From positions 1 to 64,000 of the IMG/VR virus record IMGVR_UViG_3300025000_000084: a stretch of DNA of 64,000 bases; one strand, 5' to 3'. Shown piece after piece: positions 4,047-53,470 of this stretch. The first letter of the stretch is position 1; each line of letters starts with the position of its first letter. Made by a program: the position numbers and the translations under genes. The notes under the pieces were generated by a model. That model worked only from the letters and a program-made list of their open reading frames with translations, had not been told where the DNA came from and did no database searches. This DNA is from a virus.

Positions 4047-4060
4047 GAGTAGAATAAGAT

Positions 4061-4305: not shown

Positions 4306-4341
4306 AGGTTTGGAAAAGCATCACAGTATTGGTGTAACAGA

Positions 4342-4363: not shown

Positions 4364-4366
4364 CTC

Positions 4367-7457: not shown

Positions 7458-7596
7458 AGTAACAGTATTTGTTTCAGTCCAAAGTTCCTCAATCTGTGGT
7501 CGTATTTGCAGATAATAAGACCACAATTAGAGACAATATGACCTCAATAAATATGAATGTCTTTATATGTTTAGACTGAAATAAATCACACTCAAC

Positions 7597-8172: not shown

Positions 8173-8870
8173 TGAAAATATCCGGCATATATCAGATCAA
8201 GTCTTTATGCAAGCCCGAGAGGATATACATCGGGAGTGCCGTTAATATCCATAGGAGATGGACTGTCCATCTATGTAACCTTAAAAGCAATATTCATCAT
8301 TCTGGTAAACTTCAAAATCACTTCAATAAATACGGTAAGAATGACTTGGTATTTTCAGTATTAATAGGCTGCGATAAAGAAGATTTGATTTCGACAGAGC
8401 AATACTTTCTTGATTTATATAAACCGTATTTCAATAATTGTATGATTGCGGGAAGTTGCATAGGTATTAAGCATTCCGAAGAGACAAAAAGCAAAATAAG
8501 TGCGGCTAATAAGGGTAAAATTCTTTCAGAAGTGACTCGCAAAAGAATGAGTGAGGCCGGGAAGAACAAGTCAGAGGAAACCAAAAGAAGAATAGGCGAT
8601 GCGGTAAGAAGAAGGCCTCCTGTTTCTGAGGAGACTAAAAGGAGAATTAGTTTGGCTAAGAAGGGGAAAAAGATATCTGAGGAAACCAGAATAAAAAGAA
8701 TTGAGACGCGAGGCCCCATATCAGATGAGACAAGGGAAAGAATGAGTGAAGCGAGCAAAGGGAGAATAGTATCTAAGGAAACACGAAGAAAGCACAGTGA
8801 GGCAATGAAAGGAAATAGATATGGGGTAAGAGCCAAACCTAAAATTGAACTTGAGTTAAATCTTAATTAA
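8172..8870 (+). CDS. GIY-YIG homing endonuclease with NUMOD3 repeats
   Basis: The N-terminal GIY-YIG nuclease domain shows SGIYQIKS (residues 4-11) and RIYIGSAVNIHRRW, and a LQNHFNKYG motif near residue 50. About seven NUMOD3-type repeats follow (SEETKSKIS, SEVTRKRMS, SEETKRRIG and similar), which bind DNA in I-TevI-like enzymes. The ATG overlaps the stop of the upstream gene (TAATG). The gene is AT-rich and Lys-rich compared with its neighbours, as expected of a selfish insert. It spreads itself by cutting alleles that lack it and has no role in the virion. Confidence 0.93.
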   Translation: MKISGIYQIKSLCKPERIYIGSAVNIHRRWTVHLCNLKSNIHHSGKLQNHFNKYGKNDLVFSVLIGCDKEDLISTEQYFLDLYKPYFNNCMIAGSCIGIKHSEETKSKISAANKGKILSEVTRKRMSEAGKNKSEETKRRIGDAVRRRPPVSEETKRRISLAKKGKKISEETRIKRIETRGPISDETRERMSEASKGRIVSKETRRKHSEAMKGNRYGVRAKPKIELELNLN

Positions 8871-8876
8871 TATACC

Positions 8877-10097: not shown

Positions 10098-10099
10098 CC

Positions 10100-30856: not shown

Positions 30857-31105
30857 TTATTTATTAAAGTGTTTTGCGTACTGTGCTTTTACATACTCTC
30901 TCTCATCTACCCCTTCGACATAGATCACCAGCCGTCCATTAACTCCCACATCAGGCTTTACTATCCCTTCGGAATACAGCTCATTGAGAGCTTCGGTGGT
31001 ATCCGCGCCAAACAAGTGCATGAGGTTTGCCAAATAGATATTTGGCCAGCGGGTCTTACTGTATTCCTGTTCAAGGTATTCCCGGATTTTCTCTTTCGTT
31101 GTCAT
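30857..31105 (-). CDS. hypothetical winged-helix-like protein, 82 aa
   Basis: I chose the ATG at 31105 (MTTKEKIREYL), which overlaps the terL stop, rather than an upstream in-frame ATG inside terL. Residues 3-60 read like a small winged helix (KEKIREYLEQEY, LANLMHLFGADTTEALNEL, then NGRLVIYVEG). This suggests a small DNA-binding protein. Translational coupling to terL is likely. Confidence 0.5.
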   Translation of the reverse strand: MTTKEKIREYLEQEYSKTRWPNIYLANLMHLFGADTTEALNELYSEGIVKPDVGVNGRLVIYVEGVDEREYVKAQYAKHFNK

Positions 31106-33108
31106 ATCGTTGCTTCGGTTATTTTTCTGTTGCCTGTACGGTTGGTCCTGGGCTTGATCTCCTGGGGTAATGGCAGGCACTTATAACAGCCCCATACCCC
31201 GATTGCTGTTGTCATCACAATGTCATCATGGCACCCTTCCACAGCACCATACCTCCCGTTGGGCTTGGTCTCATAGGTATCCATCTCATCACATGCCCTG
31301 GCATCAGTCTCGACATACAGATCATCGCGCATGATCCCATTGAGGAAGTCAATGACCATTGGCTTGGTCTGGGCGTTGGTATGAAACCCGTATCTCAGAG
31401 GAAGGCCCTGCCGTATCTTCTCCTGGTCGGTCCGGGCATAGATATTCGGATAGAACTTAACAACCTCATCAATGATGGTGAGGAAGTGATCCCCCTCGGA
31501 CTCAATGGAGTTGCGGTCAAAGGAGTTGGACTCCGGGATGAACATGGCATTGTTATAGATCTTGCATATCTGCACTCCCTTCCAGGCGAGTAGGTCCTGA
31601 TCAATGTGCGAACGCCATGTAGCAATAGCCGTAGGTGTGCCTCCGTCACTCATCCAGTAGCGGTCAAAGACACGGATCACCGAGTAGTCGGCATCCTTTG
31701 TACGACCTCCGATATCCATTGATACAACATACCGGTCAGCGATATTGACTGACTTATCCGGCATCTCCCATATCTGAAAGTTGCCCCGGTCATTTTCATT
31801 GAGCACAATATCCTCGAGCGCATCCTTACCCCTCTGGCTCCGGCCGGCAATCTCCCCGGTGAATATGGGCTTGCAGTTCCCCTTGCGTAGTCTCTCGACA
31901 TAGGCCGGGCTGAATACCCTGGCACCGGAGGCCTGAAAGCTCTCCTGCCATGTAGAGGGGTATTCTTCGTGCATGCGCCAATCATCATAATTCTCCCCGC
32001 GCTTGGTCTCGAAATACCACTTGATACCTTCCAATGTTGCACCCAGGGACCACAGGTAAGAGGCGTAAGTATCCGACTGCATCCACTTGATGAACTTGGC
32101 ATAGTCCTGTATATCCTGTTGGTATAGCTCGATCTCGAACCATGGAACGAAGATTGGAGCATAGGAGCTCTTACCCTCCATTGCTGACAGCCATTCCCGG
32201 TGAAAGAAGTTTCCCACACCCTTTGCTGTGGACTCGATCACAATCATCGAATACGGCACGTTTGACACGGCAGCACGGACACTCTGAGCAAGGTCCTCGG
32301 CTGACCGCTGTTCGGTGGAACGCCAGAAGGCAACCTCCGAAAGATGACACATTGCCAGGTCAAAGGTCCTTATGCTGTTGGGCTGTTGTGATGAGCCTAT
32401 AATAATATTGTTTCCCCTCTCGACAAGTTGCCTGTTCTTGGTGGATCCCTCAAACGGAGCGAGATCGAAGGTGCCGAAAGCCTGCGGATACTTGCGGACC
32501 AGCCGCGAATACATCGCCCGGATGTTACGGGCCTGGTCCTCTACTTCGGTGACAATAGCAGAGTGCCATCCTGTCTTATGGATTATCTGGAACCACGACA
32601 TGTAGATCTGAACCAATGTCGAGCCACCCCACTGCCGGGCCTTGTCAATGATGATACGGATAGGTACCTCGGCAAGGCGCATCTGCTCGAGCTTGACCAG
32701 CACCCTATACCTCTGCGGCCAGTTCAGCTTAAAGGGAATGATCTGCTTTGTCTTTTTGTCCGTTATCCTCGCGCAAGTGACGGCCCAGAACTCAAAGTCA
32801 TGCCGGAATCGCTGCTCGGTAAAGTCACTGAGGAACCGGTTGACGGTTGCAGGATTGGCATTTTGTCCGGTGGCCTCAAGGAGTTTCTCAATACTATGGT
32901 GTGACTCAATGGCATCAATGAGATCCTTATTCTCCTGGTACATGGTCTGAGGTATGCCCCAGGTGACCGTATGACCACCAACTTCAAATATGATGGTACG
33001 CCTGGGGATGGGAGAGCCTATGCCCGTTGTCGGATCATAAGGAGCGAAGAGGACCTTCCGGCGCTTTTCGTTCTCCCGCAGGATAGTATTGACTGCGGCA
33101 TCGGTCAT
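31102..33108 (-). CDS. terL: terminase large subunit
   Basis: The 668-residue packaging motor has an ATPase domain with a Walker-A-like KARQWGGST (residues 156-164) and a Walker-B HLSEVAFW (Glu258), then IESTAKG, a typical coupling segment (around 291-297). The RNase-H-like nuclease domain starts at SMDIGGRTKDADYS (Asp465), with an IPESNSFD strand and a final HDDIVMTTAIG carrying metal-binding acids. The length is normal. Unusually it is transcribed opposite to the capsid genes and leads an operon that also carries ssb and the NinB-like gene. Confidence 0.93.
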   Translation of the reverse strand: MTDAAVNTILRENEKRRKVLFAPYDPTTGIGSPIPRRTIIFEVGGHTVTWGIPQTMYQENKDLIDAIESHHSIEKLLEATGQNANPATVNRFLSDFTEQRFRHDFEFWAVTCARITDKKTKQIIPFKLNWPQRYRVLVKLEQMRLAEVPIRIIIDKARQWGGSTLVQIYMSWFQIIHKTGWHSAIVTEVEDQARNIRAMYSRLVRKYPQAFGTFDLAPFEGSTKNRQLVERGNNIIIGSSQQPNSIRTFDLAMCHLSEVAFWRSTEQRSAEDLAQSVRAAVSNVPYSMIVIESTAKGVGNFFHREWLSAMEGKSSYAPIFVPWFEIELYQQDIQDYAKFIKWMQSDTYASYLWSLGATLEGIKWYFETKRGENYDDWRMHEEYPSTWQESFQASGARVFSPAYVERLRKGNCKPIFTGEIAGRSQRGKDALEDIVLNENDRGNFQIWEMPDKSVNIADRYVVSMDIGGRTKDADYSVIRVFDRYWMSDGGTPTAIATWRSHIDQDLLAWKGVQICKIYNNAMFIPESNSFDRNSIESEGDHFLTIIDEVVKFYPNIYARTDQEKIRQGLPLRYGFHTNAQTKPMVIDFLNGIMRDDLYVETDARACDEMDTYETKPNGRYGAVEGCHDDIVMTTAIGVWGCYKCLPLPQEIKPRTNRTGNRKITEATI

Positions 33109-34494: not shown

Positions 34495-35877
34495 ATGACA
34501 GAGATGAAAAACTCGAACCTTTTTAATATCGGCTTTAAGCTGTTCGGAGTGCTGTTTATGATGGCTCTCCTTTCGGCTTTCTCACATATCGCAGCCGCAT
34601 CAGGTGTTGTCGTTGCTCTTACCGGGGCTGTTGTCACCGGTGCAGCTGACGGAACCGGTGCTGTTACGGTTGAGGCTACAAAAGCAGGCTCCGCTGACCT
34701 GGATATGGATTATGTGTCCAAGTTGGTTACTCAGATGCGACCGGCCGCTACGCCGTTGGATACTATCATGCGTCAGATACGCAAGGCTACATCAATGAAA
34801 TCATTTGTCAGCGAGTATTACGCTGTTGACAGCCGTCCTCTTTATGACACGGTTGCCACTGCTTATACTCATTCTGGTGATGGTGCTCTCTCCACTGACC
34901 TGGTTGTGGCTAATGTTTCTATGTGGACAGCAGATGATATGGCGATGTTCTACGGTGTTACCGGAAGTGACTCACTGGACCTTGTTTGCTTTGTTGTGTC
35001 CAAGAATGCCTCGGCCAACACTATCAAGATCCAACCTCTTAACGGAAACGCAGGATCGGGAACAACTGCCGGAGAAATAATTCTTCCGACCATACCTATC
35101 AGCGGGAGGATTGTTCGCCTCGGCTCATGTAAGAATGAGCTCGATGCACAGACCTCTCCTTATGCTATCCTGCCTGTGAAGGCCTACAACTATGTGCAGC
35201 GTTTCATGGCACAGGTTGAAGAATCAACCTTCCAGAGGATACATGCTAAGGAAGTGGATTGGGGCTTTACGGATTACGAAGCTCAGAACATCTATGACAT
35301 GAAGGCTACCATGGAGCAGTCCTTCCTGTTTGGCGTTCGCGCCAAGTTTGACGATGTGACCAATAACAAGGAAAGATATTCTACCGGTGGTATCACCAGG
35401 TTCATATCCAAAGCCCTTGAGTATGGCACCGGAGGCACAGACCGCACCATTGACAATCATACCTTTGTAGATTGGACTCAATCAGTTTTTGCTGGTAACA
35501 GTGGAGCCGACACCCGCTATCTCTTCGGAGGTAATGGCCTGATGGCAAACCTTATGAAGGTTGACACGGTTATCAAACAGATTGAAGCCAAGCAGACCTT
35601 GGTTAAGTTCGGCCTCACCTTCAAGGAGATTGAGACCAACTTCGGCCGTCTGTTGTTCTACCATCACCCGCTGCTTGATCAGGCAGGATGGGCTGATAGA
35701 GGTATAATCCTTGACCTTAACTACATCGAGAAACACACCTTTGTACCCCTGAGCTCGAAGAAACTCGACCTCAAAACATCAGGACAGAGGAACGTTGATG
35801 CAGTTGTCATCGAGGAGACTACCGGTGTAATCTGCCGTTATCCCGACACTCACGCCATCATCAAGCCTAAGGCGTAA
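34495..35877 (+). CDS. major capsid protein with an N-terminal hydrophobic signal-like segment
   Basis: The 460-residue protein is placed as the major head protein by its position after the scaffold and its HK97/SU10-type pattern: a helix with MRPAATPLDTIMRQI near residue 82, a QRIHAKEVDWGFTDYE spine-like region, HPLLDQAGWADRGIILDL, and a C-terminal VVIEETTGVICRYPDTHAI strand. Residues 5-36 are odd: a basic start, then GFKLFGVLFMMALLSAFSHI and AAASG, which reads like a Sec signal peptide. In-frame Met codons inside this stretch do not remove it. The segment may be cleaved during maturation or act as a buried arm. A hairpin follows the stop. Confidence 0.8.
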   Translation: MTEMKNSNLFNIGFKLFGVLFMMALLSAFSHIAAASGVVVALTGAVVTGAADGTGAVTVEATKAGSADLDMDYVSKLVTQMRPAATPLDTIMRQIRKATSMKSFVSEYYAVDSRPLYDTVATAYTHSGDGALSTDLVVANVSMWTADDMAMFYGVTGSDSLDLVCFVVSKNASANTIKIQPLNGNAGSGTTAGEIILPTIPISGRIVRLGSCKNELDAQTSPYAILPVKAYNYVQRFMAQVEESTFQRIHAKEVDWGFTDYEAQNIYDMKATMEQSFLFGVRAKFDDVTNNKERYSTGGITRFISKALEYGTGGTDRTIDNHTFVDWTQSVFAGNSGADTRYLFGGNGLMANLMKVDTVIKQIEAKQTLVKFGLTFKEIETNFGRLLFYHHPLLDQAGWADRGIILDLNYIEKHTFVPLSSKKLDLKTSGQRNVDAVVIEETTGVICRYPDTHAIIKPKA

Positions 35878-38931: not shown

Positions 38932-39948
38932 ATGGACGACTCCAGGATAGATATAAACCTTGCCGATAGCCCTGGACTATTCATTCAGGAGCTTGATGAT
39001 AACATCGGTATTGATGTGGTCTTTGATGATCATATCGAGGTTGATATCTTTGCCACGGAGCGTCTTGCCGATCACGGAGGGCTGCAGGGCCTCACCGATG
39101 ATGACCATACTCAATACTACAATCAGGCCCGGGGAGATGCCAGGTACGAGAGGTACCTTGGCCTCCCTGCGGCTAATGATTATGTTCTCTATGGCCGAAC
39201 TGACGGCACCCGTTATTGGGGAGTGCCAACGGGAGAAGGAGGTACGGGCTCCGTATATCATAATCTTCTGCTCGGGATCCAGGGAGGCGCGACCGATGAC
39301 TATTACCATCTCCCGGCCAACCTCTACAATGCCTTTGAGTATGTTCCCAACGGAGGCAATCCCTATCTGAGGGTTAAGCTGCCGATAGCCTGTGACGGAG
39401 ATGTTCAGGCATTTTCTGATACGGGCTGGCTGCCTCCGGATATATGGGCTGCCATGCCTTATGCTACAAACAGCTCTATAGGTGGGATACAGTTTACAAC
39501 CGCGAGCCCCGCGGCCAAGTACCTCAGAGAAGATGGAGCTTGGGTAGTGCCTCCGGTTGGCAGTGGTAGCGGAATGGTTTACCCGGGAGAGGGTATTGCC
39601 CGGTCCACCGGTGCAGCCTGGGCCGCCTCGCTCACAGATAACTCAGTCGGGTGGAATGCTGCCTCAGTATGGGTAGCCGCCAACGGAGCCAACGCTGTGA
39701 CAGCCTACGGATGGGGCAACCATGCGAGCGCCGGCTATCTCACGGCTATCAATAAGGCCCTGGTAGAAGCGGTGCTCACCGGATCCATTACCAGCCATAA
39801 CCATCCAACGGTGAATACAGCAAACTACTCCATCGTTCAGGAGAGTGGCAAGCTGGTGATAAAATACGGGGCAACAGCAATAGCGAGCTTCAGTTCGGCA
39901 GGGCTATTGACTGTGGCTGATGATGTAGAAGCCTTTGGAACACCTTGA
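38932..39948 (+). CDS. tail-fibre-like protein, 338 aa
   Basis: Tail-fibre features are plain. GLTDDDHTQYYN and a VYHNLLLGIQGGATDDYYHL repeat are of the type found in trimeric collar/fibre shafts. A KYLREDGAWVVPP turn (typical of fibre head repeats) and ASAGYLTAI follow. The N-terminus (DSRIDINLADSPGLFI) may be the virion-binding part. It has no signal peptide, unlike the later fibre genes. Confidence 0.75.
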   Translation: MDDSRIDINLADSPGLFIQELDDNIGIDVVFDDHIEVDIFATERLADHGGLQGLTDDDHTQYYNQARGDARYERYLGLPAANDYVLYGRTDGTRYWGVPTGEGGTGSVYHNLLLGIQGGATDDYYHLPANLYNAFEYVPNGGNPYLRVKLPIACDGDVQAFSDTGWLPPDIWAAMPYATNSSIGGIQFTTASPAAKYLREDGAWVVPPVGSGSGMVYPGEGIARSTGAAWAASLTDNSVGWNAASVWVAANGANAVTAYGWGNHASAGYLTAINKALVEAVLTGSITSHNHPTVNTANYSIVQESGKLVIKYGATAIASFSSAGLLTVADDVEAFGTP

Positions 39949-42249: not shown

Positions 42250-44166
42250 ATGAAGAAGATAATAATCATTCTGATAGCGGTTATGCTGATGGGACTGGCC
42301 GGTTGTATCGGGACAAAAATATATCTCGGCAAGGAGCAGTCCATCACAAAGGACCTGGAGCTTCTGGATGAGGGACCAATAGCCAGGGCAATAGATCCGA
42401 CTACCGTTCCTGCCGGAGGTACCTGGGGCACGGTCCGCGGGATCCTGAACACTAACTTCAGTAATATCAACGGGACCCTGGACTCGGTGGAGGTCACGCT
42501 GGCGGAGTTTGCCGATAGCATCACGAACTATTCAGCGGATATTGCACTGCGAACTCTCATCGGTGATGTACGAGATGAAATTGCGGATAGTCTCAACGTC
42601 TTGCGTCCATCTGTGCTTTTTAAATCCGATAGTACACTTTATGCTACTCAAAGCGATCTTGCAGCTATTGAAACCGGGGCAGTTGATAGTGCTGTTTATG
42701 CCACAAGAAATTATGTCGGGATAACCTTTGCTCCAATAGCAAACCCGGTATTTACCGGAATACAGAAGGTAAGTACGACTGATACTCTTGCAACAATGGC
42801 ATATGCCCGTCAGTATGGAGGAACCGGAACGGTCACAATATCTGATGTGCAGGATGAGATTGCTGATAGCTTGAATGTCCTTAGACCTCTTACCCTTGTT
42901 GGTGATGCAACTGCCGGTCCGTTTTTTGATGGAAGTTCTGATGGTGGTCAATTACTCTATTTCTACGGAGACAATGGGTTCTATACGGCCCTCCAGGGAG
43001 GAGCGCCAACGGCAAATAGGAGTTACAGACTTCCTATAGCAGCACTTCCGTCCGCTGGCACTACAAGTTTATTGAATATTGATGAGAATGGTAACATGGG
43101 ATTTGTTGCTTCGGCTACATTCAACGCGGCAACAGTTACCGGGTTTACTCCTGCAAGTGGTTCTTTAACTTTGAGTGGAGCAGATGCGTTAACTTTTACT
43201 ACAACAGCTACTACAGGTGTAACCCTGCCAACTTCAGGCACATTAGCTACAATAGAGAACATTAATGACAGTCTTGACGCAAGGATAGGAGGGGGCGTAG
43301 AGCTCTCGGATGTAGCTATAATGATTGCAGACAGTACCGGAAACGCTGTAGGTAATTATGTCACACGAAAGGCCCTTATTGACAGCCTTGCGGCTAATCC
43401 GGCGGGGTTATCTTCTGGGGCCGTTGCTACAATGATTAATGACAGCATACAGGCACGACTTGACGTGGCTGTTGACGGGGTTAGACTTGCCGATTCTGTG
43501 AACTACGTCAATGGTTATATGTCGAGATATGATGGAGTGACTGGATTAGCTACAAAGATTAATGTTGCCGATAGTACAGGTAATGCCCCAGGGAACTATG
43601 TCACACGAAAAGCATTAGTTGACAGCCTTAATGCAATAGCCGGAGGATTGGTGATTGGCGATGTCCGTGACGAGATAGCCGACAGCTTAAACGCTCTGCG
43701 ACCAAGCATACTTACCGAGGCAGACCTACGAAAGTATGACAGCGACACTACAACCCTCTTTGTCTTCGGTGCTGGCAGCGGAGGGGCAGAGGCAGACACA
43801 GCCTTATTTACGGCAAGCAATATCTATGGGTCTTTCTACAATGCGGGGTCGGATACTTTGGTGGTGACATCGCTTCGGGCGGTGATGATAGCAGGGACAA
43901 CGCCATTAGGAACAGATACTCTCTCAATACAGATATATTGGAACGACACGATAAACGTGACTACTGGCAATAGCTTCGTTGTACTGAACACCGACCCTCT
44001 CGGCATAAACTCCACGACCACGGGAACGGTTGATTCATCTTTCGATAACTCAGCTATCCCGCCTAACGTGTGGGTGTTCTGTAAGTCGCCCGGGGTAGTG
44101 ACGGGGCGAAAGCCAAAGGCATTGATTGTGAATATGACCGGGTACAAACGTAACAGAAGTTATTAA
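42250..44166 (+). CDS. fibre-like protein with a lipoprotein signal, 638 aa
   Basis: The N-terminus reads MKKIIIILIAVMLMGLAGC, a clear signal with lipobox LAGC (Cys19). The rest is fibre-like: Ser/Asp/Thr-rich repeats, including three copies of a D[VQ][RQ]DEIADSLN[VA]LRP segment and two copies of ADSTGNAxGNYVTRKAL, the latter also present in the gene at 47683. A central segment (ATFNAATVTGFTPASGSLT) is typical of phage fibre shafts. If the signal works, the product would be a surface lipoprotein rather than a cytoplasmically assembled fibre. Confidence 0.75.
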   Translation: MKKIIIILIAVMLMGLAGCIGTKIYLGKEQSITKDLELLDEGPIARAIDPTTVPAGGTWGTVRGILNTNFSNINGTLDSVEVTLAEFADSITNYSADIALRTLIGDVRDEIADSLNVLRPSVLFKSDSTLYATQSDLAAIETGAVDSAVYATRNYVGITFAPIANPVFTGIQKVSTTDTLATMAYARQYGGTGTVTISDVQDEIADSLNVLRPLTLVGDATAGPFFDGSSDGGQLLYFYGDNGFYTALQGGAPTANRSYRLPIAALPSAGTTSLLNIDENGNMGFVASATFNAATVTGFTPASGSLTLSGADALTFTTTATTGVTLPTSGTLATIENINDSLDARIGGGVELSDVAIMIADSTGNAVGNYVTRKALIDSLAANPAGLSSGAVATMINDSIQARLDVAVDGVRLADSVNYVNGYMSRYDGVTGLATKINVADSTGNAPGNYVTRKALVDSLNAIAGGLVIGDVRDEIADSLNALRPSILTEADLRKYDSDTTTLFVFGAGSGGAEADTALFTASNIYGSFYNAGSDTLVVTSLRAVMIAGTTPLGTDTLSIQIYWNDTINVTTGNSFVVLNTDPLGINSTTTGTVDSSFDNSAIPPNVWVFCKSPGVVTGRKPKALIVNMTGYKRNRSY

Positions 44167-44167
44167 G

Positions 44168-44701
44168 ATGAAGAAATATATTATCATTCCGATACTACTC
44201 CTCAGCATCATTTGTAACGCTCAGTTCACAAAGGGAGGAGGGCAATTTCTGAAGACGGGGAGCGGTTTTATGTCGGCTCCGGCAATAGTAGAACCTCCCG
44301 CTGTCAATATGCTTTCTAATGGCACATTTGATGATGCAACGGATTGGACTTGTAGTAGTGTGGTTTGGACAATAACGGGAGGTAAGGCTAATTATGATAA
44401 TACCGGAAATTCGAGAATATATCAAGCCTCTGGAGATATGGTTATATCGATAGAGGCGAGTACGGCCTATACCATAACTTTTGATGTAGATATCATTGCT
44501 GGTGCTCCACCCGAACTTACCCTGCAATTTTGTTCTTCAAACGCATTAATTGTGTATGCGGCCTATGCAAATTTTACCGAAGGAGCCATGAGCGCAAGTT
44601 TTACTACACCAAGCGATATAGGCGATGGGGGATTGGGTATAAGGGCAGCAGTAGGTGGAGCCACCGCCACTATAGATAATCTTGTATTAACCGAAGATTA
44701 A
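44168..44701 (+). CDS. exported carbohydrate-binding-like protein, 177 aa
   Basis: It has a Sec signal peptide, MKKYIIIPILLLSIICNAQ, with likely cleavage before Gln19, a typical Bacteroidota form. A FLKTGSGFMSAP linker follows, then a CBM4/9-like beta-sandwich start (NMLSNGTFDDATDW) and strands to the end. It sits between the lipoprotein fibre and the tailspike, one base from each, so it is probably translated with them. A sugar-binding role is inferred. Confidence 0.65.
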   Translation: MKKYIIIPILLLSIICNAQFTKGGGQFLKTGSGFMSAPAIVEPPAVNMLSNGTFDDATDWTCSSVVWTITGGKANYDNTGNSRIYQASGDMVISIEASTAYTITFDVDIIAGAPPELTLQFCSSNALIVYAAYANFTEGAMSASFTTPSDIGDGGLGIRAAVGGATATIDNLVLTED

Positions 44702-44702
44702 A

Positions 44703-47303
44703 ATGAAAAAAACACTTTATATAATACTGTTCTTGCTGGTTTCTATTAATCTTTATTCACAAAGCGTTTATTTCGTTCAAGATACAGCATACAATGCGAA
44801 TGCGTCGGACAGTAACGCCGGTACGGATATTGACTATCCTTGGGCAACCTGGCAAAAAGCGTTAGTGACAGCACAAGCCGGAGATACAGTTTATTTTAGA
44901 GGTGGTGTATGGTATCCCGAAGCCAGGATAAAGAAAGACCCTGACAATACTCAGTTGTATGGTGCAAGCGGCTACAACGGAACGTATGACGCTCCTATAG
45001 TCTACATGGCTTACCCTCCCGATGTGGCCGAAGGAGATATACCAATATTAGATTGCATTAATCATACTACTCTTAGTTCTTTTGATCAGGGTATGCAGTT
45101 TTTTGGGACATACCAAAAGCTGATTGGCCCAATGGAAATTCGTCATGTTAAAGAGAAGGTATATAATCAAGAAATAAGGGGTATTGAATTTGGCAACGGT
45201 AGCTTGGGAGGAAATGTCTGGCTTGAAAGAATTGTATCTCATGATCATGGTGGTTATGGTTTTTTAATGAATGGGTTTGATACTTTATATATTACCAACT
45301 GTGACGCATATAATTGCGTGGATAGTATTTCAGATCATCCGGGGAATAGGTCAGATGGATTCGGAGGTGGTAGTGGAGGTACGGCAGTTGATACTTTTAA
45401 GGTGGCTTATTTTACGGGATGCAGATCATGGCATAATTCAGATAACGCCTTTGATCTTGCTGCTGGTTTCCAATTATATGTTGAAGACTGTTGGGCATGG
45501 AGTTGTGGTTATCTTGAGGAAGGTGCTGGAGGTCATTTTAAATTTGCGGGTAGTGCAGTAAGAGATATGACAAAGCGGGTTGTTAAAAACACTATATCAG
45601 CATTTGCGACAGGAGCGGGATATGTAACAGAAAATCTTTATTATCCTAATTACGGGCCAGTAATGTCATTTTATAATAACACTTCTTATAAAGACCAAAT
45701 AGCATTCCAAGATGCTAATGAATGTGATGATGATCCTGATTGGGGGTGGACGCAGAGTTTAACAACCGGAAGATGTGTTTTTAGAAATAATATTGCCTAC
45801 CAAACAAGGGGTAATAACGGCTTTAATGTATATGGTGCAACATTTGCTGCATGGTGTTATCAATACCCACAACACATAACACAAGATCATAATAACTGGG
45901 AACAGTTTGGGGACTATTATGCAACGCAGGTAAATGCAGATTACACCATTACTGACGATGACTTTACTTCAGTAGATTCTGTAACTATAGTTACACAGTT
46001 ATCTGCTCCAAGAAAAGATGACGGTTCTCTTCCTGACATAACTGTATTAAAATTAGCGCCTGGCAGTGATCTTATTGACGGTGGTGTTAATGTAGGACTA
46101 CCTTATTCTGGTACTGCACCCGACCTGGGATATTCTGAATTTGCTCCAATAATAGCCGATCATACGGTTGTAGATCGGTTTGATGACATACCTCAATATT
46201 ACATTGATAAAGTAAAAGAAATGAGATTTGTCATTGCAGGCGAATCACACGCCTTGGGCTATGGCAGAGGATTGGAGAGATTAGAGGTTGACTATCCTCA
46301 GTTTGTTGTTAATTACCAATATAATCCAGGATCGCCTGAGGCTTATACAACATCACGTTTAAGAGCCGATCTATATACCTGGGGAGATGTAACCCATGCA
46401 ACAGGTTGGATATGGGGTTACGGAGAAGAAGACTGGTTTACATCGGCGGCTGCTATAGCACAGACAAAGGTAGGCTTATCTTATACTAATAATACAGTTT
46501 ATGAACCATATGCATTCGGATTCGGATGGTGTTATGATGGTGCAATAATAGATGCTACTGATTATATAGAGGCTACTAAAGAATACATTGACTATTGTGC
46601 AGATAGTATTGATACTAAGATTTACTATACTACAGGCCCAGTTGATTTGATGTACGATGAAATAGGCTACAATAAATATCTCATGTATGAACAAATACGA
46701 GATTCTGTATCTGCCGATCCAAGCAGAATGTTGTTCGATTTTGCTGACATATTATACTATGATGACAGCGGTGATTATAGCACGGAACCATACACCGTTA
46801 CATGGGATGGTCATACATACCCCGTTGGAACGCCAACTAATGTAGAGGATGATTTTGGTGCGCATATGTCTTGGGAGGCCGCCGTCAGGCTTGCAAAAGG
46901 CGTTTGGTGGATGCTGGCAAGGATGGCCGGATGGGATGGATTATCGGTATCTGCACCATCAGAAAGCGATGCCACCGACATAACCGCCTTTTCCTTTACC
47001 GAGCAGACGGGAGCAGCAACCATCAACACCACCAACCACACGATAAGCATAGAGGTAGCCTACGGGACAAGCCTGACATCTCTCAGCCCCTCGATAACCG
47101 TATCCTACGGGGCATCTATTGACCCTCCCGGTGGCACGGCAAGGAACTTCACCTCTCCGGTTACCTACACGGTGATGGCAGAAGATGGGACGACCACACA
47201 GGTATGGACGGTGACGGTGACGGTTGAGGACTTGCCAATAGGACATGCAGCTAAGACAGGCAACAGGATAATGCTTCACAACGGAGAACCGGTAAGACTA
47301 TGA
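44703..47303 (+). CDS. tailspike-like protein: signal peptide, PL9-like beta-helix, SGNH esterase, DUF5018-like end
   Basis: The 866-residue protein has four parts. First, a signal peptide (TLYIILFLLVSINLYSQS). Second, a right-handed beta-helix (about 20-480) with PWATWQKALVTAQAGDTVYF and a CRSWHNSDNAFDLAAGF segment, as in PL9 pectate-lyase-like enzymes. Third, an SGNH-hydrolase domain with GESHALGYG (Ser515) and GAHMSWEAAVRLAKG (His721), then WWMLARMAGWDG. Fourth, a DUF5018-like beta domain (about 750-845) and a GNRIMLHNGEPVRL tip. It would cleave and deacetylate surface glycans. Predicted export is unusual for a virion protein. Confidence 0.75.
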   Translation: MKKTLYIILFLLVSINLYSQSVYFVQDTAYNANASDSNAGTDIDYPWATWQKALVTAQAGDTVYFRGGVWYPEARIKKDPDNTQLYGASGYNGTYDAPIVYMAYPPDVAEGDIPILDCINHTTLSSFDQGMQFFGTYQKLIGPMEIRHVKEKVYNQEIRGIEFGNGSLGGNVWLERIVSHDHGGYGFLMNGFDTLYITNCDAYNCVDSISDHPGNRSDGFGGGSGGTAVDTFKVAYFTGCRSWHNSDNAFDLAAGFQLYVEDCWAWSCGYLEEGAGGHFKFAGSAVRDMTKRVVKNTISAFATGAGYVTENLYYPNYGPVMSFYNNTSYKDQIAFQDANECDDDPDWGWTQSLTTGRCVFRNNIAYQTRGNNGFNVYGATFAAWCYQYPQHITQDHNNWEQFGDYYATQVNADYTITDDDFTSVDSVTIVTQLSAPRKDDGSLPDITVLKLAPGSDLIDGGVNVGLPYSGTAPDLGYSEFAPIIADHTVVDRFDDIPQYYIDKVKEMRFVIAGESHALGYGRGLERLEVDYPQFVVNYQYNPGSPEAYTTSRLRADLYTWGDVTHATGWIWGYGEEDWFTSAAAIAQTKVGLSYTNNTVYEPYAFGFGWCYDGAIIDATDYIEATKEYIDYCADSIDTKIYYTTGPVDLMYDEIGYNKYLMYEQIRDSVSADPSRMLFDFADILYYDDSGDYSTEPYTVTWDGHTYPVGTPTNVEDDFGAHMSWEAAVRLAKGVWWMLARMAGWDGLSVSAPSESDATDITAFSFTEQTGAATINTTNHTISIEVAYGTSLTSLSPSITVSYGASIDPPGGTARNFTSPVTYTVMAEDGTTTQVWTVTVTVEDLPIGHAAKTGNRIMLHNGEPVRL

Positions 47304-47392
47304 GCCTTCTGGGATAAGATAACAATAAAGGTCAACCTGGTATCGGTGATAAAGCTGGTGCGATGGTGGAAGAAAAGACGGAGGAAAGAATA

Positions 47393-47686
47393 ATGAACGA
47401 TTTGATATTACACTTCGGATTCGGGGCGCTGATAACAGCGGCGATCCTCTTGATATTCAGCAAACCGACTGCCGGACGCAGACCTGATTGGTTGGTAGTG
47501 CTGGCCGTTGGTGCCTCTCTCACCCTTGGTGGCATAAAAGAGGCCGGGGATCTATGGCTCGGATGGGGTACTCCGGAGGTGGCAGATCTCACGTTAACCT
47601 GGTCGGGAGGGATAGTGGCCCTTGCGGTCATTGCCATGGTTGATTGGATCATTTATGTAATATGCTTTAACCGTAATAAACGATGA
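47393..47686 (+). CDS. small membrane protein, 97 aa
   Basis: I start it at the ATG at 47393 (MNDLILHFGFG). Three membrane segments are seen: ILHFGFGALITAAILLIF, LVVLAVGASLTLGG and SGGIVALAVIAMVDWIIYV. The FGALI / GGIKEAGDLW pattern resembles a small VanZ/YfjD-like family of phage membrane proteins. Its role is unknown. It sits between two exported fibre genes; a lysis (holin-like) or anchoring job is possible. Confidence 0.6.
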   Translation: MNDLILHFGFGALITAAILLIFSKPTAGRRPDWLVVLAVGASLTLGGIKEAGDLWLGWGTPEVADLTLTWSGGIVALAVIAMVDWIIYVICFNRNKR

Positions 47687-49227
47687 AAAAGATTCTCATA
47701 TCTACAATACTTGTTTTGGCAATAGTCATCAATAGCTGTGCGCCAAAGAAGATGATGACGAGCGCCAGGGCGTTTGATACATCGCCCTTGGACTCCATAA
47801 ATGTCGGGGCGTACAACAATGATCCGTCAGCGGATAAACTTCGTACCTCCTTTATCAAGGCAAACCAGCCGATCAACTTGGCCAATTACCTTGAGCTTTA
47901 TACCTTCTCTCCAGCTGAGTTCGCAATTCTTCGCGGAGGGCTTATTACTACTGCCGAACTGAATCGTCTTTCAGGAGTGACCTCTAACGTCCAGACACAG
48001 CTCAATGCCCGGATAGAGACCGCAGACAGCACCGGGAATGCTGCTGGCAACTATGTCACCAGGAAGGCGCTGCGAGATACCATCGCAAGCGGTGACTATG
48101 CCACAAAACAAAACATTAATGATACTATGAGCACTTACCTTGCTACCGCAACGGTAGGTGTTGCTGCCGCGGATTCAAACATCTATGCGGGTTACACCAC
48201 GCGAACATACGTTGAGTCATTATTAGGCAGCGGATCGGGGTTATCTGCCCAACGACTGGCGTTTATTATAGGCGTGACCACAGGTGCGCCATCGGCTGCT
48301 GACTCAATAGTAGTTCATTCGTCCTTTGAAGGTAAGCATATAGATGTTTACCGTAATACTAATACTATAACTGGTGGAGCCAAACAATTTCAACAGTTCA
48401 CAGCAACAAATATTTATGATGGATTTAGGGTAAAACATGATACCATTACTGTTAATCCAGTATGGGTTGCCGGCGAACAAGTAATGATAGACATTATTGA
48501 ACCTATTTTATGGAGCTACCTGTCACTTGAGGGGGAGGAGTCAGCTTTGCTTGACAGTTTGAATGGTTATTGGAAGTTCGATGAAGCATCGGGTACTGCG
48601 GTGGTTGATGCTACCGGCACACAGAACGGAACAACTAACGCCACGGCTGGGGTTGCTGGTAAACTTGGATTGGCACGAGACTTTGATGCAGCAAATGATG
48701 TGGTTAATATAGCCTACAACGCCAATACGGTTCCGAGTGGTGCTGATTTCTCAGTAGCCATGTGGTTTAAGATGGATAGCTTACCTTCAGTGATGGCGCA
48801 GAGTAACTACCTGTTCCAACAGAACAGAGGCTCAAGCCCATATAGCGCTCATTATTTATATATAAATAGTGCTGACGATAAGTTAAAGGGAGTGACAAGG
48901 AATACGGACGGAACATCTTATGAAGTGCTTTCCTCGGGGGCGTTATCAGTAGATACGTGGTATCATGTGGTATTCGTAAATAGAGGTGACGGACAGACCT
49001 TGCAGATGTATCTTAACGGAACAGATGTATCTGCATCAGCAGGAACATTTAGTGGAACTTTAATGGAAAGCGCATCAACTACTTGCTTTGGTAATTCTTA
49101 TAGTGGAGCAGGAAGTTATTTTGAAGGAATAATTGACTCTCCCGGGATATGGAACAGGGCATTAACATCGGGCGAGGTAACAACCTTATATAATTCAGGC
49201 AACGGGAATACCCATCCATTTAATTGA
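47683..49227 (+). CDS. lipoprotein fibre with a C-terminal LamG-like domain, 514 aa
   Basis: The lipoprotein signal MKKILISTILVLAIVINSC has lipobox INSC (Cys19). A fibre-like body follows and includes LTTAELNRLSGVTSNVQTQL-type trimer repeats and ADSTGNAAGNYVTRKALRD, shared with the gene at 42250. The C-terminal about 230 residues form a concanavalin/LamG-type sandwich (LNGYWKFDEASGTAVVDATG, FSVAMWFKMD, WYHVVFVNRGD, YFEGIIDSPGIWNRAL), which binds carbohydrate. The start overlaps the upstream membrane gene. Confidence 0.78.
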   Translation: MKKILISTILVLAIVINSCAPKKMMTSARAFDTSPLDSINVGAYNNDPSADKLRTSFIKANQPINLANYLELYTFSPAEFAILRGGLITTAELNRLSGVTSNVQTQLNARIETADSTGNAAGNYVTRKALRDTIASGDYATKQNINDTMSTYLATATVGVAAADSNIYAGYTTRTYVESLLGSGSGLSAQRLAFIIGVTTGAPSAADSIVVHSSFEGKHIDVYRNTNTITGGAKQFQQFTATNIYDGFRVKHDTITVNPVWVAGEQVMIDIIEPILWSYLSLEGEESALLDSLNGYWKFDEASGTAVVDATGTQNGTTNATAGVAGKLGLARDFDAANDVVNIAYNANTVPSGADFSVAMWFKMDSLPSVMAQSNYLFQQNRGSSPYSAHYLYINSADDKLKGVTRNTDGTSYEVLSSGALSVDTWYHVVFVNRGDGQTLQMYLNGTDVSASAGTFSGTLMESASTTCFGNSYSGAGSYFEGIIDSPGIWNRALTSGEVTTLYNSGNGNTHPFN

Positions 49228-49228
49228 T

Positions 49229-50653
49229 ATGAGAAAATATCTAACTATATTATTGATTTTACTGCCGCTTCTCCTGAATGCGGGGACATACTACGTGGCT
49301 ACAACGGGAAGTGATGCGGCGGCAGGGTCGCTTGCCGCTCCGTGGGCAACGTGGCAAAAGGGATTCTCTACAATTATTGCTGGTGATACATTATATATAA
49401 GAGGTGGCACATATCAACCGATAGGAACGTCTATTGGAACTATTTTTACAACCGAATGGTGGGGGTGTGTGGGACTGTATAACCACAACGGCACGGCACT
49501 GAACAGAATAGTAGTGATGAATTATCCGGGGGAGATACCGATCCTTGACGGTGTGAATAATACCGCAGCAAATAACGGACGGGGCGGTTCACGCTTTGGA
49601 ATAGTGATGCGCCACTGTGACTACTGGACATTTAAGGGCTTAAATGTAACGGGCGTGGTTCAGCTTACAGGAGAATTAGGGGTTGCCGGATTTAGGATGC
49701 AAGAAAATTCAGACCATAACGAAATAATCGAATGTAATGTTTATGGTATGGGAGGTTCGGGTATTTCTCTCATGTATGACTGCACGGATAATTTGATATA
49801 CAACTGTGACGTATATGATAATGAAGACCCGCTAAGTACGCCAACCCCGGGAAATAACTCTGACGGGATAGAGATAGCAGACATAACCGACACAGCTATG
49901 GTCAATACCATTAGAGGCGTAAGGATGTGGGGGAACTCTGACGACGGAGTGGATTTAATGCGTAATGAGGGTAAGGTAATTATTGATAGCTGTTGGGCTT
50001 TTTATAATGGTCTTCTCGCCGGGAAGGTTGCAAACGGGTTTAAGTTAGGTTGGGCAGAAGACCCTCCGGTGATTGAATACAATCGTGTCGTCACAAATTG
50101 TATGGCAGCATATAACACCAGCACGGGGTTTAACGCAAATAACTGTATGCAGAAGATGCAGATATACAATAACCTGTCAATAGGAAATGATAATGATGGT
50201 TTCTGGTGGTATATTTTTGGAGCAAGGGGTGGGGCATCAATATTCAGAAATAACATATCAATCTTAAATGACGGGTATCAGTACTCTTATATTTATCTTG
50301 ATACTTATACTTTCGATCATAATAATTGGGATGCACTCTACGATCAGACGGGGCCCGTGGCAAGCGTTGAGGACTTTGTAACGTTGGATACGTTAGGCTT
50401 GCGGTATTCGAGAAAAGCCAATGGCAGTCTCCCTGATATAAATTTTGCCAAGCTAAGGTCAACATCAGATTTAATTGATGCGGGAATAGATGTTGAGATC
50501 GCATACACCGGGATATATCCCGATTTAGGGCTATTTGAATATGTTGTCGAGGAGATAGATGAAGAGGATTTCCCGAGGGTTACAGCGATAGGCACGGGTA
50601 CGGGCAATAACTTATTAGTTGATAAAAACGGAAGAGTAATAATCATACAATAA
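49229..50653 (+). CDS. PL9-like beta-helix tailspike with signal peptide, 474 aa
   Basis: The signal peptide MRKYLTILLILLPLLLNAG is followed by TYYVATTGSDAAAGS and a right-handed beta-helix with PWATWQKGFSTIIAGDTLY. Strong PL9 pectate-lyase-type blocks are DGIEIADITD, WGNSDDGVDLMRNEGKVII and ANGFKLGW. It is a paralogue of the N-terminal two-thirds of the gene at 44703 (same PWATWQK and ending DLIDxGxxV). The C-terminal tip is GNNLLVDKNGRVIIIQ. It probably cuts acidic polysaccharide, but the substrate is not determined. Confidence 0.75.
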   Translation: MRKYLTILLILLPLLLNAGTYYVATTGSDAAAGSLAAPWATWQKGFSTIIAGDTLYIRGGTYQPIGTSIGTIFTTEWWGCVGLYNHNGTALNRIVVMNYPGEIPILDGVNNTAANNGRGGSRFGIVMRHCDYWTFKGLNVTGVVQLTGELGVAGFRMQENSDHNEIIECNVYGMGGSGISLMYDCTDNLIYNCDVYDNEDPLSTPTPGNNSDGIEIADITDTAMVNTIRGVRMWGNSDDGVDLMRNEGKVIIDSCWAFYNGLLAGKVANGFKLGWAEDPPVIEYNRVVTNCMAAYNTSTGFNANNCMQKMQIYNNLSIGNDNDGFWWYIFGARGGASIFRNNISILNDGYQYSYIYLDTYTFDHNNWDALYDQTGPVASVEDFVTLDTLGLRYSRKANGSLPDINFAKLRSTSDLIDAGIDVEIAYTGIYPDLGLFEYVVEEIDEEDFPRVTAIGTGTGNNLLVDKNGRVIIIQ

Positions 50654-50664: not shown

Positions 50665-51033
50665 ATGCCGCCTACGAGAACAACCGTCCACACCTGCAAT
50701 AAAACAAATGAGATTCATGCTCTGGCTAAGAAGGTGGACAAGTTGGATCAGGATTACAACGGCAGCGGGACTGAACCTGGCATGAAGGGACAACTGGCCA
50801 CCCTGATCGGTTTGGTAACACCTATGAGTCAGGATGTCAAGATGTCTAAAGAGTTTATTCTGAATTATAAGGAGAGGGAGAGAGTATTAAAGGAACAGGC
50901 CGATAAGAAGAGAGCCGAAGAGGATAAGCGGAACCGGAGCGTTAATAAGTGGGTGAATATTGCAATTGCTGTTATAGCTTTTAGTGCATTCATCTTGTCT
51001 GCCTTCGCGCTCAAGGGTTGTGCACCATTATAA
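50665..51033 (+). CDS. coiled-coil protein with C-terminal membrane anchor, 122 aa
   Basis: An N-terminal soluble part has HTCNKTNEIHALAKKVDKLD. A charged helical region follows (ERERVLKEQADKKRAEEDKR), then one membrane helix near the C-terminus (WVNIAIAVIAFSAFILSAFAL). The XhlA-like organisation (coiled coil then single TM) is common for phage lysis accessory proteins. It opens the lysis region after the tailspikes. Confidence 0.6.
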   Translation: MPPTRTTVHTCNKTNEIHALAKKVDKLDQDYNGSGTEPGMKGQLATLIGLVTPMSQDVKMSKEFILNYKERERVLKEQADKKRAEEDKRNRSVNKWVNIAIAVIAFSAFILSAFALKGCAPL

Positions 51034-51043
51034 CATCACTACC

Positions 51044-51268
51044 ATGGAGTTCATAAACAGCTGGAAGTCGAAAAAGAAACAGGGTGACAAGATCGCCATC
51101 AAGGTAAGGATAGGCAAGTTTACCCTCTTCGATCTGTACTATGACCATGCCAAACGCCAGTTTGGAATCATATTGTTTAACCTGGGAGCCAGAACGTCAC
51201 TCCCGAAAAAGTGTGAAAGCAATGAAAACTATAAAGGTTCTACTTATGAAGATAGCCGCTTTCTTTAA
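51044..51268 (+). CDS. hypothetical small basic protein, 74 aa
   Basis: I start it at the ATG at 51044. The N-terminus is basic (NSWKSKKKQGDKIAIKVR), with a beta-like RIGKFTLFDLYYD and an FGIILFNLG segment. The 3' end overlaps the start of the caspase gene by 47 bases. It is not recognised. Because of the overlap, it may be translated with the caspase gene. Confidence 0.5.
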   Translation: MEFINSWKSKKKQGDKIAIKVRIGKFTLFDLYYDHAKRQFGIILFNLGARTSLPKKCESNENYKGSTYEDSRFL

Positions 51269-52058
51269 GAGGATTTTCACTCCGGCACCGGAGCAGCCAT
51301 TTGTTTACGGGATGTATTGCTGTCTGTCCTTTGCCATCAATAAGTACACCCAGAGCCCTCTGAGGGGTTGCCTTAACGATCAGAAAAGGATTGTAGCCAG
51401 GATAAAGCAGTTCTGGTCACAGTTTGTGTTCCGGTTGTTTCAGGACTCCGATGCTACTTGGCAGAAGTTCGAGGCCGAGATCCTGAAAGCTTTTGAAAAC
51501 ATGCCTACCGGATGGCTGATAATTCACTACTCGGGGCATGGGACCTACAAACGTAATCCCCGGGAGATAGACGGGTTCAGCGAGGCATTCTATTTCCATA
51601 ACGGCTCTTATGCCGACTACCAGCTCTATGAACTTATGAAGAAGAAGCCGGCAGGACTGAAGGTGGTCTTTATTCTCGACTGCTGCTTCTCTACCGGTAT
51701 CACTGTCCCAAGGGTCAAGTATAATCCACACTACAAGCAGGCCCGTTTCCTTGTCTCTGAGCCGATGCCGGAGAACTTCAATGTATCCAAGAGAGCAATC
51801 ATCGAAGAAGATATTGACTGGATTGTATTCGCTGCCTGTGGTGAACGGGAGACAGCGGCAGATGCTTACATCAATGGGGATTATACAGGAGCATTCTCAT
51901 GGTACTTTTCTCAGATCATGCGACCGGGGATCTTCTTTGCCAATTGGCAAAAAGAAGTTGATAAGTACCTTCCGTCAACTGATTATAAGCAGTCCCCTTC
52001 GCTTACGGGAAGCAATGAGCTTATGCACCAGCTTCCATTTGAGATACCGGCAGTATAA
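51222..52058 (+). CDS. caspase-fold protease (metacaspase-like)
   Basis: I start it at 51222 (278 residues); an ATG at 51246 is the alternative. The peptidase C14 fold is clear: INKYTQSPLRGCLNDQKRI (residues 39-57), IIHYSGHGTY with catalytic-type His106, DGFSEAFYFHNG, and VFILDCCFSTG with Cys155. The mid-region ADYQLYELMKKKP fits the substrate-binding region of p20-like domains. Metacaspases usually cleave after Arg/Lys. Here the gene lies between small membrane genes and the holin, so lysis timing, host killing or anti-defence are all possible. I see no second p10-like chain beyond the end. Confidence 0.8.
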   Translation: MKTIKVLLMKIAAFFKRIFTPAPEQPFVYGMYCCLSFAINKYTQSPLRGCLNDQKRIVARIKQFWSQFVFRLFQDSDATWQKFEAEILKAFENMPTGWLIIHYSGHGTYKRNPREIDGFSEAFYFHNGSYADYQLYELMKKKPAGLKVVFILDCCFSTGITVPRVKYNPHYKQARFLVSEPMPENFNVSKRAIIEEDIDWIVFAACGERETAADAYINGDYTGAFSWYFSQIMRPGIFFANWQKEVDKYLPSTDYKQSPSLTGSNELMHQLPFEIPAV

Positions 52059-52110
52059 TATTTTTTTGCACACAATACGACAGAAACGCAGTACATTACA
52101 ACAAAAGTGA

Positions 52111-52118
52111 TAACTTTG
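52111..52118 (+). promoter_or_regulatory. -7-like box upstream of the holin gene
   Basis: TAACTTTG matches TAnnTTTG exactly in the 98-base gap before the holin ATG at 52157. No TTTG occurs at 19-22 bases upstream, so the -33 part is missing. It could give late or separate expression of the lysis genes. Confidence 0.35.
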
Positions 52119-52156
52119 ATACGCTAAAACATTAATGTTTAACTAAATCCAACAAA

Positions 52157-52945
52157 ATGAAACAAAGTAAGTTTTTAAATCTGAATTGGGCTGACCTGGG
52201 AAAGGGACTGCTCATTGCATTCCTTACTGCCCTGCTGGGCGGCATACTTGAACTTCTACAGGCCGGTGAACTACCGACTACATGGGTAGCGTTTCAGCCT
52301 ATCCTTGAGGTTTCTCTTTCGGCAGCGGTGGCATATTTGCTCAAGAACATGTTTACAAACAGTGAAGGCCAGCTAATGAAGGGAGAGCTCTCCGCACAGA
52401 GAAAGCGAGCCTCAAGGATGGGAAGGGTCATGCCTCTGCTTATCCTGTTATGCTTATTGAGTTTCGGAGTCAATGCACAGGGGTTTGTAAAAGATGTAAC
52501 GCCCGAGAGAATCGCCAAGAAACAGGCGGTCAGAGAACGGAGTACGGACACCTTAGTGTATAACGACCAGCATGCTTATTTTCTCAGGGGAGGACTTACG
52601 GCTGGGTATAAAAAGCTCTATTATTCCTCTACCGAAAAGAAGATTCTTGGCAACGATTATGAGAGACCAGGCGTAGGACTTGAATACGCAAAGTACACCG
52701 TGGTAAATGGAGAGGCTGTGAGTGATATTGGGTTCGGAGGATATCTCATGATTCCGGTTAAGGATGCGGAGAATTACATATCCATTCTCGCTACAGTACA
52801 GATATATGACCTCGCACGAAAGTTCAAATTAGACTTTCTACCTCCGGGGCTTAGTATTGGATGCGGCCCGTGTTACGACTTTAATAACGCCATACCACTT
52901 ATCGAGAGATTTGGCATTGTGCCAACCATTGCGATAAAATTCTGA
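52157..52945 (+). CDS. holin-like domain fused to an exported beta-barrel-like domain, with an internal start
   Basis: The 262-residue frame has two parts. Residues 1-85 carry two hydrophobic helices (LLIAFLTALLGGILELL, VSLSAAVAYLLKNMF) in the pattern of holins found in many Bacteroidota phages. From Met92 (52430) there is a signal peptide (PLLILLCLLSFGVNAQ), then a domain with GLTAGYKKLYY and alternating beta strands, ending PTIAIKF like an outer-membrane protein. GGAAGGG precedes Met92. Either one bifunctional protein or two products are made. The endolysin-region gene follows. Confidence 0.65.
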   Translation: MKQSKFLNLNWADLGKGLLIAFLTALLGGILELLQAGELPTTWVAFQPILEVSLSAAVAYLLKNMFTNSEGQLMKGELSAQRKRASRMGRVMPLLILLCLLSFGVNAQGFVKDVTPERIAKKQAVRERSTDTLVYNDQHAYFLRGGLTAGYKKLYYSSTEKKILGNDYERPGVGLEYAKYTVVNGEAVSDIGFGGYLMIPVKDAENYISILATVQIYDLARKFKLDFLPPGLSIGCGPCYDFNNAIPLIERFGIVPTIAIKF

Positions 52946-52951
52946 TAACCC

Positions 52952-53470
52952 GTGAAGATCACCGCAGTTATAGGACGAAGATATGAGGCCGCCCAGACCC
53001 CTGGGGGCCTCTTCGTCTTTGACCAGGATCAGGTGATCCTCGATGTATTGACCTTGGAGCTCCCATGGTTGGACAACGAGAGGGAGATCAGCTGTATTCC
53101 GGCCGGCACCTATAAGTGCGAGCGATTAAACCATCCCAGGTTTGGGCATTGCTGGTGGGTTAAAGATGTGCCCGGCAGAAGTGAGATTTTGTTCCACTCT
53201 GGAAATTATGCAAGTGAACGTGCAATAAAGATGATAAGCCTATCGAGTTTCTTGCACTTCATTAAAAGACTATTCAACTATCACTGGAACGGGATCCCGA
53301 TGGAACCGCTCAGCAACCCGCGTAAGGTGGATACTGAAGGCTGCATCATGCCTGGGCTTCAGTTCGTAGATATAAATAAAGATGGTATTCTCGACATTGC
53401 AGACTCACAAAAAGCCATGAAACAGTTAAGAGCTGTCCTACCAGATCGATTTAACCTTGTAATACTTTAA
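52952..53470 (+). CDS. DUF5675-family protein, lysis-type
   Basis: The likely start is GTG at 52952, 172 residues. DUF5675 features are present: LELPWLDNEREISCIPAGTY (around residues 32-51), VPGRSEILFHSGN, and a TEGCIMPG motif that normally follows soon after. Here about 35 residues are inserted between the SGN and DTEGC parts. The catalytic logic is not known for the family; it occurs in phage lysis cassettes and near cell-wall enzymes. It lies directly after the holin-like gene. Confidence 0.7.
   Translation: MKITAVIGRRYEAAQTPGGLFVFDQDQVILDVLTLELPWLDNEREISCIPAGTYKCERLNHPRFGHCWWVKDVPGRSEILFHSGNYASERAIKMISLSSFLHFIKRLFNYHWNGIPMEPLSNPRKVDTEGCIMPGLQFVDINKDGILDIADSQKAMKQLRAVLPDRFNLVIL

Follow-up and report, generated by a model that had tools for sequence, protein, structure and literature searches.

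Fibre, lectin and lyase genes with Sec or lipoprotein signals in the late region of a tailed phage and their equivalents in other phages

The window analysed here covers positions 1-64000 of an IMG/VR virus record that is 71.6 kb long. It contains genes for the terminase (31102-33108, minus strand), portal (22517), major head protein, integrase (54812) and a CI-like repressor (56025, minus strand), and is therefore from a tailed, probably temperate phage. Relatives are found in Bacteroidales genomes and among Bacteroides phages, so its host most likely belongs to the Bacteroidota. A search of Rfam gave no match. The features discussed here are listed in Table 1.

Table 1. Features in and around the run of signal-bearing genes. 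A slash marks the end of a signal.
Coordinates	Strand	Product	Remarks
34495..35877	+	Major head protein	phrog_1328, 3.9e-13; query for finding relatives; N-terminus signal-like
38932..39948	+	Conventional signal-less fibre protein	LQGLTDDDHTQYY motif; directly upstream of the run
42250..44166	+	Fibre-like lipoprotein, 638 aa	LAGC (Cys19); repeats common with 47683; fibre-type middle and C-terminal parts
44168..44701	+	Exported protein, 177 aa	Signal NA/Q; no confident family
44703..47303	+	Exported protein, 866 aa	Signal YS/Q; PL9-like β-helix, SGNH-hydrolase-like domain, DUF5018 Ig-like domain
47363..47686	+	Small membrane protein	Inside the run; relatives adjoin fibre/lysis genes in L012, L013 and L016 (alignment)
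47683..49227	+	Lectin-tipped fibre-like lipoprotein, 514 aa	INSC (Cys19); fibre-type N-terminal module SINVGAYNNDPSADKLRTSF; C-terminal LamG
49229..50653	+	PL9-like lyase, 474 aa	Signal NA/G; Ca-site and Lys-base residues intact
50665..53470	+	Putative lysis region	After the run: 50665, 51141, 52157, 52952

The run at 42250-50653 is located between the tail and lysis genes. It consists of six genes, five with intact Sec or lipoprotein signals and one for a small membrane protein, and the N-termini of these five are as described in the original prediction. A Cys lipobox is present within the signal, as for SPase II substrates, in 42250 (MKKIIIILIAVMLMGLAG/C) and 47683 (MKKILISTILVLAIVINS/C). 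The signals of 44168 (MKKYIIIPILLLSIICNA/Q), 44703 (MKKTLYIILFLLVSINLYS/Q) and 49229 (MRKYLTILLILLPLLLNA/G) are of the SPase I type. They show the n-, h- and c-regions of Bacteroidota SPase I precursors, with Ala, Gly or Ser before a Gln at +1 in 44168 and 44703, and NA/G in 49229.

Signals were called by conservation and by a simple rule, applied unchanged throughout (a basic n-region, no acid, and a strong h-region that begins no later than residue 12). Of the 55 window genes, 5 alone satisfy this rule, and all five are in the run. With random placement, five within six neighbouring genes would be expected with P about 4.5e-5. Outside the run, the N-terminus of the head protein (34495) is hydrophobic and signal-like as well, although its n-region is longer and a Q-rule site is lacking. 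The start is separated from the upstream stop by 1-10 bases in four of the five signal-bearing genes, and that of 47683 overlaps the neighbouring gene by 4 bases. The annotated starts are probably real, as the genes are nearly gap-free and a downstream start would leave an unexplained open frame.

The run has the late-operon position and the fibre modules of phage tail fibre and tailspike genes. The label of fibre/tailspike, given originally to all five products, was a fair guess, but they are not uniform. Two of them are PL9-like. The product of 49229 is predicted to be a PL9-type polysaccharide lyase, with matches to PF22842 (1.4e-22) and to the right-handed β-helices of 5olq (4.8e-27) and 1ru4 (2.8e-26). 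The active-site columns for Ca binding (D237, D238, D241) and the catalytic lysine (K272) are present, as in Dickeya/Erwinia Pel9A (1RU4) and the B. thetaiotaomicron rhamnogalacturonan lyase (5OLQ). Unlike those enzymes, the window genes are in a phage late operon. In 44703, the β-helix covers residues of about 20-480 and the SGNH-hydrolase-like domain about 480-745; DUF5018 is the third domain named. This protein matches PF22842 (6.8e-17), PF16410 (1e-10) and PDB entry 5olq (1.1e-19), and its folds match 5olq/5olr and SGNH folds. It keeps the catalytic Lys, but the second Ca-site Asp in the SDD motif is replaced by Asn, a further difference from the two PL9 lyases. Capsule remodelling, one of the functions suggested earlier, is possible given the intact lyase site of 49229, although an ordinary tailspike enzyme fits equally.

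The LamG domain of 47683 matches PF13385 (1.6e-21), and a 65-nt repeat is common to 42250 and 47683. Only a weak carbohydrate-binding match, below the cut-off, was found for 44168 (CBM_4_9, E=0.042), and the Pfam search with the small membrane protein gave nothing above the cut-off. An AlphaFold model of 42250 was discarded (pLDDT 36). BLAST searches with four of the five proteins found no full-length relative among 50,697 phage records, and 42250 has no match in a sample of 395 Bacteroidota genomes. Homologues are present in viral contigs, and the type of signal can differ: an SPase I signal replaces the lipobox in the homologue of 42250 in L013 (34%), and the homologue of 47683 in L012 (62%) also bears an SPase I signal. 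A C-terminal K-x-G tail was considered as a common docking tag of the signal-bearing proteins and dropped for lack of enrichment (10 cases, with 6.1 expected by shuffles). Upstream of the run, the fibre protein 38932 has a homologue in L013 (41% identity), likewise without a signal. In the putative lysis region, 50665 has a membrane segment at its C-terminus, 51141 is caspase-like, 52157 has a membrane domain and an exported barrel-like domain, and 52952 contains DUF5675.

Signal-bearing runs of fibre genes recur in about a dozen other viral contigs (L013/L017, L014, L015, L020, L025/L048, L032, L035, L038, L042, L043, L051, L053) and in one intact Bacteroidales prophage. The Bacteroidota Q rule is evident in them, as 32 of 65 non-lipobox signals have Ala, Gly, Ser or Cys followed by Gln at residues 16-28, compared to 12.3 expected by shuffling. 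The signals are located on fibre modules and not on host-like enzymes alone. In L051:1625 (SYS/QIQNIGVGTVPNDGTGDPLRTAF), the signal is on a fibre module with a weak match to T4_gp9_10_N (7.6e-4), and in L043:823 it is on a phage-type fibre module. For L042:3670, the C-terminal end has matches to minor tail proteins from 200 phage records. The recurrence of this layout bears out the earlier argument that five in a row speaks against chance, and together with the fusion of signals to phage fibre modules it led us to reject chance capture.

Homologues that lack the signal and start downstream, which the original prediction took as evidence against export, do exist (L015, L018, L022). They occur alongside signal-bearing forms, however, and two phages carry both (L015; L018 with L032, which are one contig), so that export is not refuted here. 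Signal-less homologues begin with MATYYVA or a similar sequence, exactly at the predicted SPase I cleavage point, and others carry an adaptor in place of the signal. In the PL9 tree the three forms interleave, and 49229 groups (100/100) with one signal-bearing, one signal-less and one adaptor-bearing phage protein. The signal is conserved as a trait and not gene by gene. The interleaved tree, the starts at the SPase I site and the presence of both forms in one phage suggest that export can be gained or lost on top of an ancient fibre module. Several relatives, gut Bacteroidales prophages among them, have no signal, so export is dispensable for such fibres in general.

Of 393 Bacteroidales genomes, 33 contain a member of the head-protein family. 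Most of these prophages lack signals on the genes that follow the head module, although several loci are short. A signal-bearing ORF of about 460 aa is found beside the last phage gene in L078, L086, L096 and L103, and may be a host gene. In the full prophage G716, five signal-bearing genes directly follow the head genes. Two of them encode small proteins; the other products are a fibre of 1039 aa, a FISUMP protein, and a protein diversified by a diversity-generating retroelement (DGR), whose gene adjoins its reverse transcriptase. The DGR target carries a signal, and 17 of its 18 TR/VR mismatches are at A. DGR systems diversify phage fibres (BPP-1, BS-TP4) as well as cellular surface proteins (Legionella, Treponema). 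At the equivalent place in Bacteroides phage BS-TP4, the target is a signal-less 2645-aa fibre. Phage DGR proteins have been stated to lack detectable signals (Benler 2018, PMC6199706), and signals have been tied to cellular DGR targets, typically surface proteins (Roux 2021, PMC8144416). Unlike the surveyed phage targets, that of G716 unites a phage DGR target and a signal. No reverse transcriptase is present among the window proteins examined.

Evidence on the virion comes from cultured marine Cellulophaga phages. In phi10:1, phi18:3, phi19:1 and phi39:1, late genes in a row, as in the window, encode fibres and annotated pectate lyases, each with a Bacteroidota-type signal. These proteins have no significant sequence similarity to the window five and are equivalents by function and position; no lipoprotein-signal member was noted among them. 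In phi10:1 (NC_021802), gp091-gp095 are five consecutive signal-bearing genes, and gp091-gp094, but not gp095, are annotated as virion proteins by MS/MS. The signal-bearing products gp085-gp087 of phi18:3, gp101-gp104 of phi19:1 and gp25-gp26 of phi39:1 carry the same annotation. In the GenBank records of the four phages, the MS/MS note is attached to 13 of 14 signal-bearing fibre-block proteins and to 0 of 15 other signal-like ORFs (P about 6e-6, counting 10 of the 15 other ORFs, with abundance uncontrolled). One in-frame match inside gp23 of phi39:1, at 15971, was left out of this count. The MS/MS detection could stem from co-purification, but a general tendency of exported proteins to co-purify accounts poorly for such a pattern, bearing in mind that abundance is uncontrolled. 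The SGNH and LamG protein gp06 of phi46:1 is MS-detected and has no signal, and neither do the phi17:2 structural proteins that were checked, so the trait is phage-specific. The earlier premise that tail fibres normally have no signals is correct in general but not for the group of phages considered here.

The signals of the window proteins also bear on where they would go. The LES surface-lipoprotein motif, C-X-K-(D/E)2 or Q-A-(D/E)2 after the Cys, was defined in C. canimorsus (PMC5080379) and varies among genera. This consensus is absent from both lipoproteins (CIGTKIY in 42250, CAPKKMM in 47683). Two other viral lipoproteins have QKADD beside the Cys. The T9SS C-terminal sorting domain (PF18962/TIGR04183) is absent from all five window proteins. 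In comparison, host homologues in MAG G002 have a signal and a T9SS tail, and the sorting domain is detected in the host homologue L028 by both libraries; relative to these, the window lyases have kept the signal and lost the tail. With no LES and no T9SS tail, the window proteins should, by the rules of these two systems, end up in the periplasm or on the inner side of the outer membrane and not on the cell surface. No Bacteroidota-type promoter match was found between 39052 and 54400, and the genes of the run are too closely spaced for promoters of their own. The missing promoter-like sites favour late expression of the run, together with the virion genes.

In the standard account, assembly of tailed phages is wholly cytoplasmic. 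For the run, the best explanation, to which we give about an even chance, is that the products are genuine virion fibres or spikes, receptor-binding and glycan-cleaving, that are made as Sec precursors, exported and attached outside the cytoplasm, the virion evidence being that from the cultured equivalents. The precursors would carry SPase I (Q-rule) or SPase II (lipoprotein) signals, cross the inner membrane late in infection and be processed by host signal peptidases. Once mature, the fibres would attach to particles outside the cytoplasm, in all likelihood at lysis, when cytoplasmic particles mix with the contents of the envelope. Loading on the virion by a non-standard route, as suggested originally, has real support in the MS/MS annotations of the equivalents in four cultured phages; we infer the export during infection, the cleavage and the site of assembly. 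No natural precedent for post-lysis loading of fibres was found.

The main rival is that the proteins are exported but are not parts of the virion, and the MS signal is due to co-purification. They would act at the envelope of the dying host or in the lysate. There they would destroy or mask the glycan receptor, which would keep progeny from being wasted on debris or would prevent superinfection. The intact PL9 active site of 49229 and the SGNH-like and lectin domains of the run are consistent with such a role. The signal-less fibre already encoded at 38932 also favours it, and counts against export for the virion. A further point in its favour is a stand-alone T9SS sorting domain that adjoins the signal-bearing lyases of one virus. 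The window proteins, in contrast, have neither a T9SS tail nor an LES to take them to the surface. This and the restriction of the virion note to fibre-block proteins in the cultured phages are harder to reconcile with such a role, which we consider somewhat unlikely.

It is less probable still that the products are virion proteins with unused signals, folded and assembled in the cytoplasm before Sec engages, with the N-terminus cut by a phage protease or buried. The head protein is signal-like too, though it must be assembled in the cytoplasm, and head-protein signals of Porphyromonas gingivalis phages have been proposed as prohead protease substrates (PMC10367356). The fibre signals, however, follow the Q rule or have lipoboxes, unlike that of the head protein, and the SPase I site is precisely where the signal-less homologues begin.

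Lysogenic conversion would place the proteins on the surface of lysogens, to act in adhesion, as decoys or in exclusion. Such display was among the possibilities listed in the original prediction but fares poorly. The phage does have an integrase and a repressor, and signal-bearing DGR targets are typical of cellular surface proteins (PMC8144416). However, the packing of the genes in a late operon between tail and lysis genes, without promoters of their own, and the missing surface-export signals make such display very unlikely. Vestigial signals from recently captured secreted host enzymes, suggested by the likeness of the β-helices to secreted Bacteroidota lyases such as the MAG G002 homologues, are the least probable, as the signals are kept at 34-60% identity, are located on phage-type fibre modules, are of the SPase I type in some homologues and of the SPase II type in others, and were retained while the T9SS tail was lost.

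No paper describing signal-bearing fibres in virions was found in the open literature searched, and signal peptides are not mentioned in a survey of flavobacterial phages (PMC8776804). P. gingivalis phages have Q-rule signal-peptide genes of unknown function, proposed as host modifiers (PMC10367356); their signals are of the host SPase I type, as in the window, but they are not reported as virion fibres. The observation holds and extends beyond the window. It matters for annotation, since signal-bearing fibre genes resemble secreted enzymes of the host or morons, and for the published claim that the DGR targets of phages have no signals. Tentatively, many Bacteroidota phages may finish their virions in two compartments, with heads and tails made in the cytoplasm and Sec-exported, host-processed receptor-binding fibres, some lipidated and some hypervariable, attached outside. 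If the fibre signals work, they would add an extracytoplasmic step to assembly or reveal dual-use receptor-binding proteins, and in either case bear on how Bacteroidota phages meet their glycan-coated hosts.

The signal-like hydrophobic N-terminus of the major head protein is kept among its relatives, which include cultured Bacteroides phages (33% identity). The late protein of 3911 aa has a 34% match in the prophage of the Bacteroidales genome G716, and giant ORFs are found in the equivalent position in Bacteroides phages. Four ORFs interspersed among the structural genes share the motif GIYxIxSxxxPxRxYxGSxVN and look like GIY-YIG homing endonucleases.

The related G716 prophage is complete and carries a diversity-generating retroelement (DGR). 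The DGR target protein bears a Q-rule signal, and 17/18 mismatches between the TR and VR repeats are at A. The viral locus L035 encodes a 92-aa protein that consists entirely of a signal and a type IX secretion (T9SS) sorting domain (PF18962, 1.6e-10); its gene is adjacent to a pair of fibre/lyase genes that also bear signals.

The caspase-like gene (Peptidase C14, 1.6e-15) lies 5′ of the lysis genes. Its product contains HYSGHG and DCC motifs, and counterparts are similarly placed in the compared loci L012, L013, L016 and L022. A single ORF in the putative lysis region combines a membrane (holin-like) domain, a second signal (FGVNA, with a predicted cut before Q) and a barrel-like domain whose last residue is Phe; certain relatives seem to encode these portions in distinct genes. 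Two proteins, one each from the loci L025 and L026, have a lipobox-like N-terminus and a membrane segment at the C-terminal end, and are possibly unimolecular spanins.

Positions of the features described (window coordinates unless a locus is named)
Position	Feature
34495-35877	Major head protein
10100-21835	Giant late protein
8172, 21832, 36919, 58819	Putative homing endonucleases
L077 (G716:C123), reverse-complement 3575-11665	Prophage with DGR
L035:5935-6213	T9SS sorting-domain protein
51141-52058	Caspase-like gene
52157-52945	Fused holin-like/barrel-like ORF
L026:4641, L027:956-1897	Apparently separate counterparts of the fused ORF
L025:8765, L026:4868	Possible unimolecular spanins
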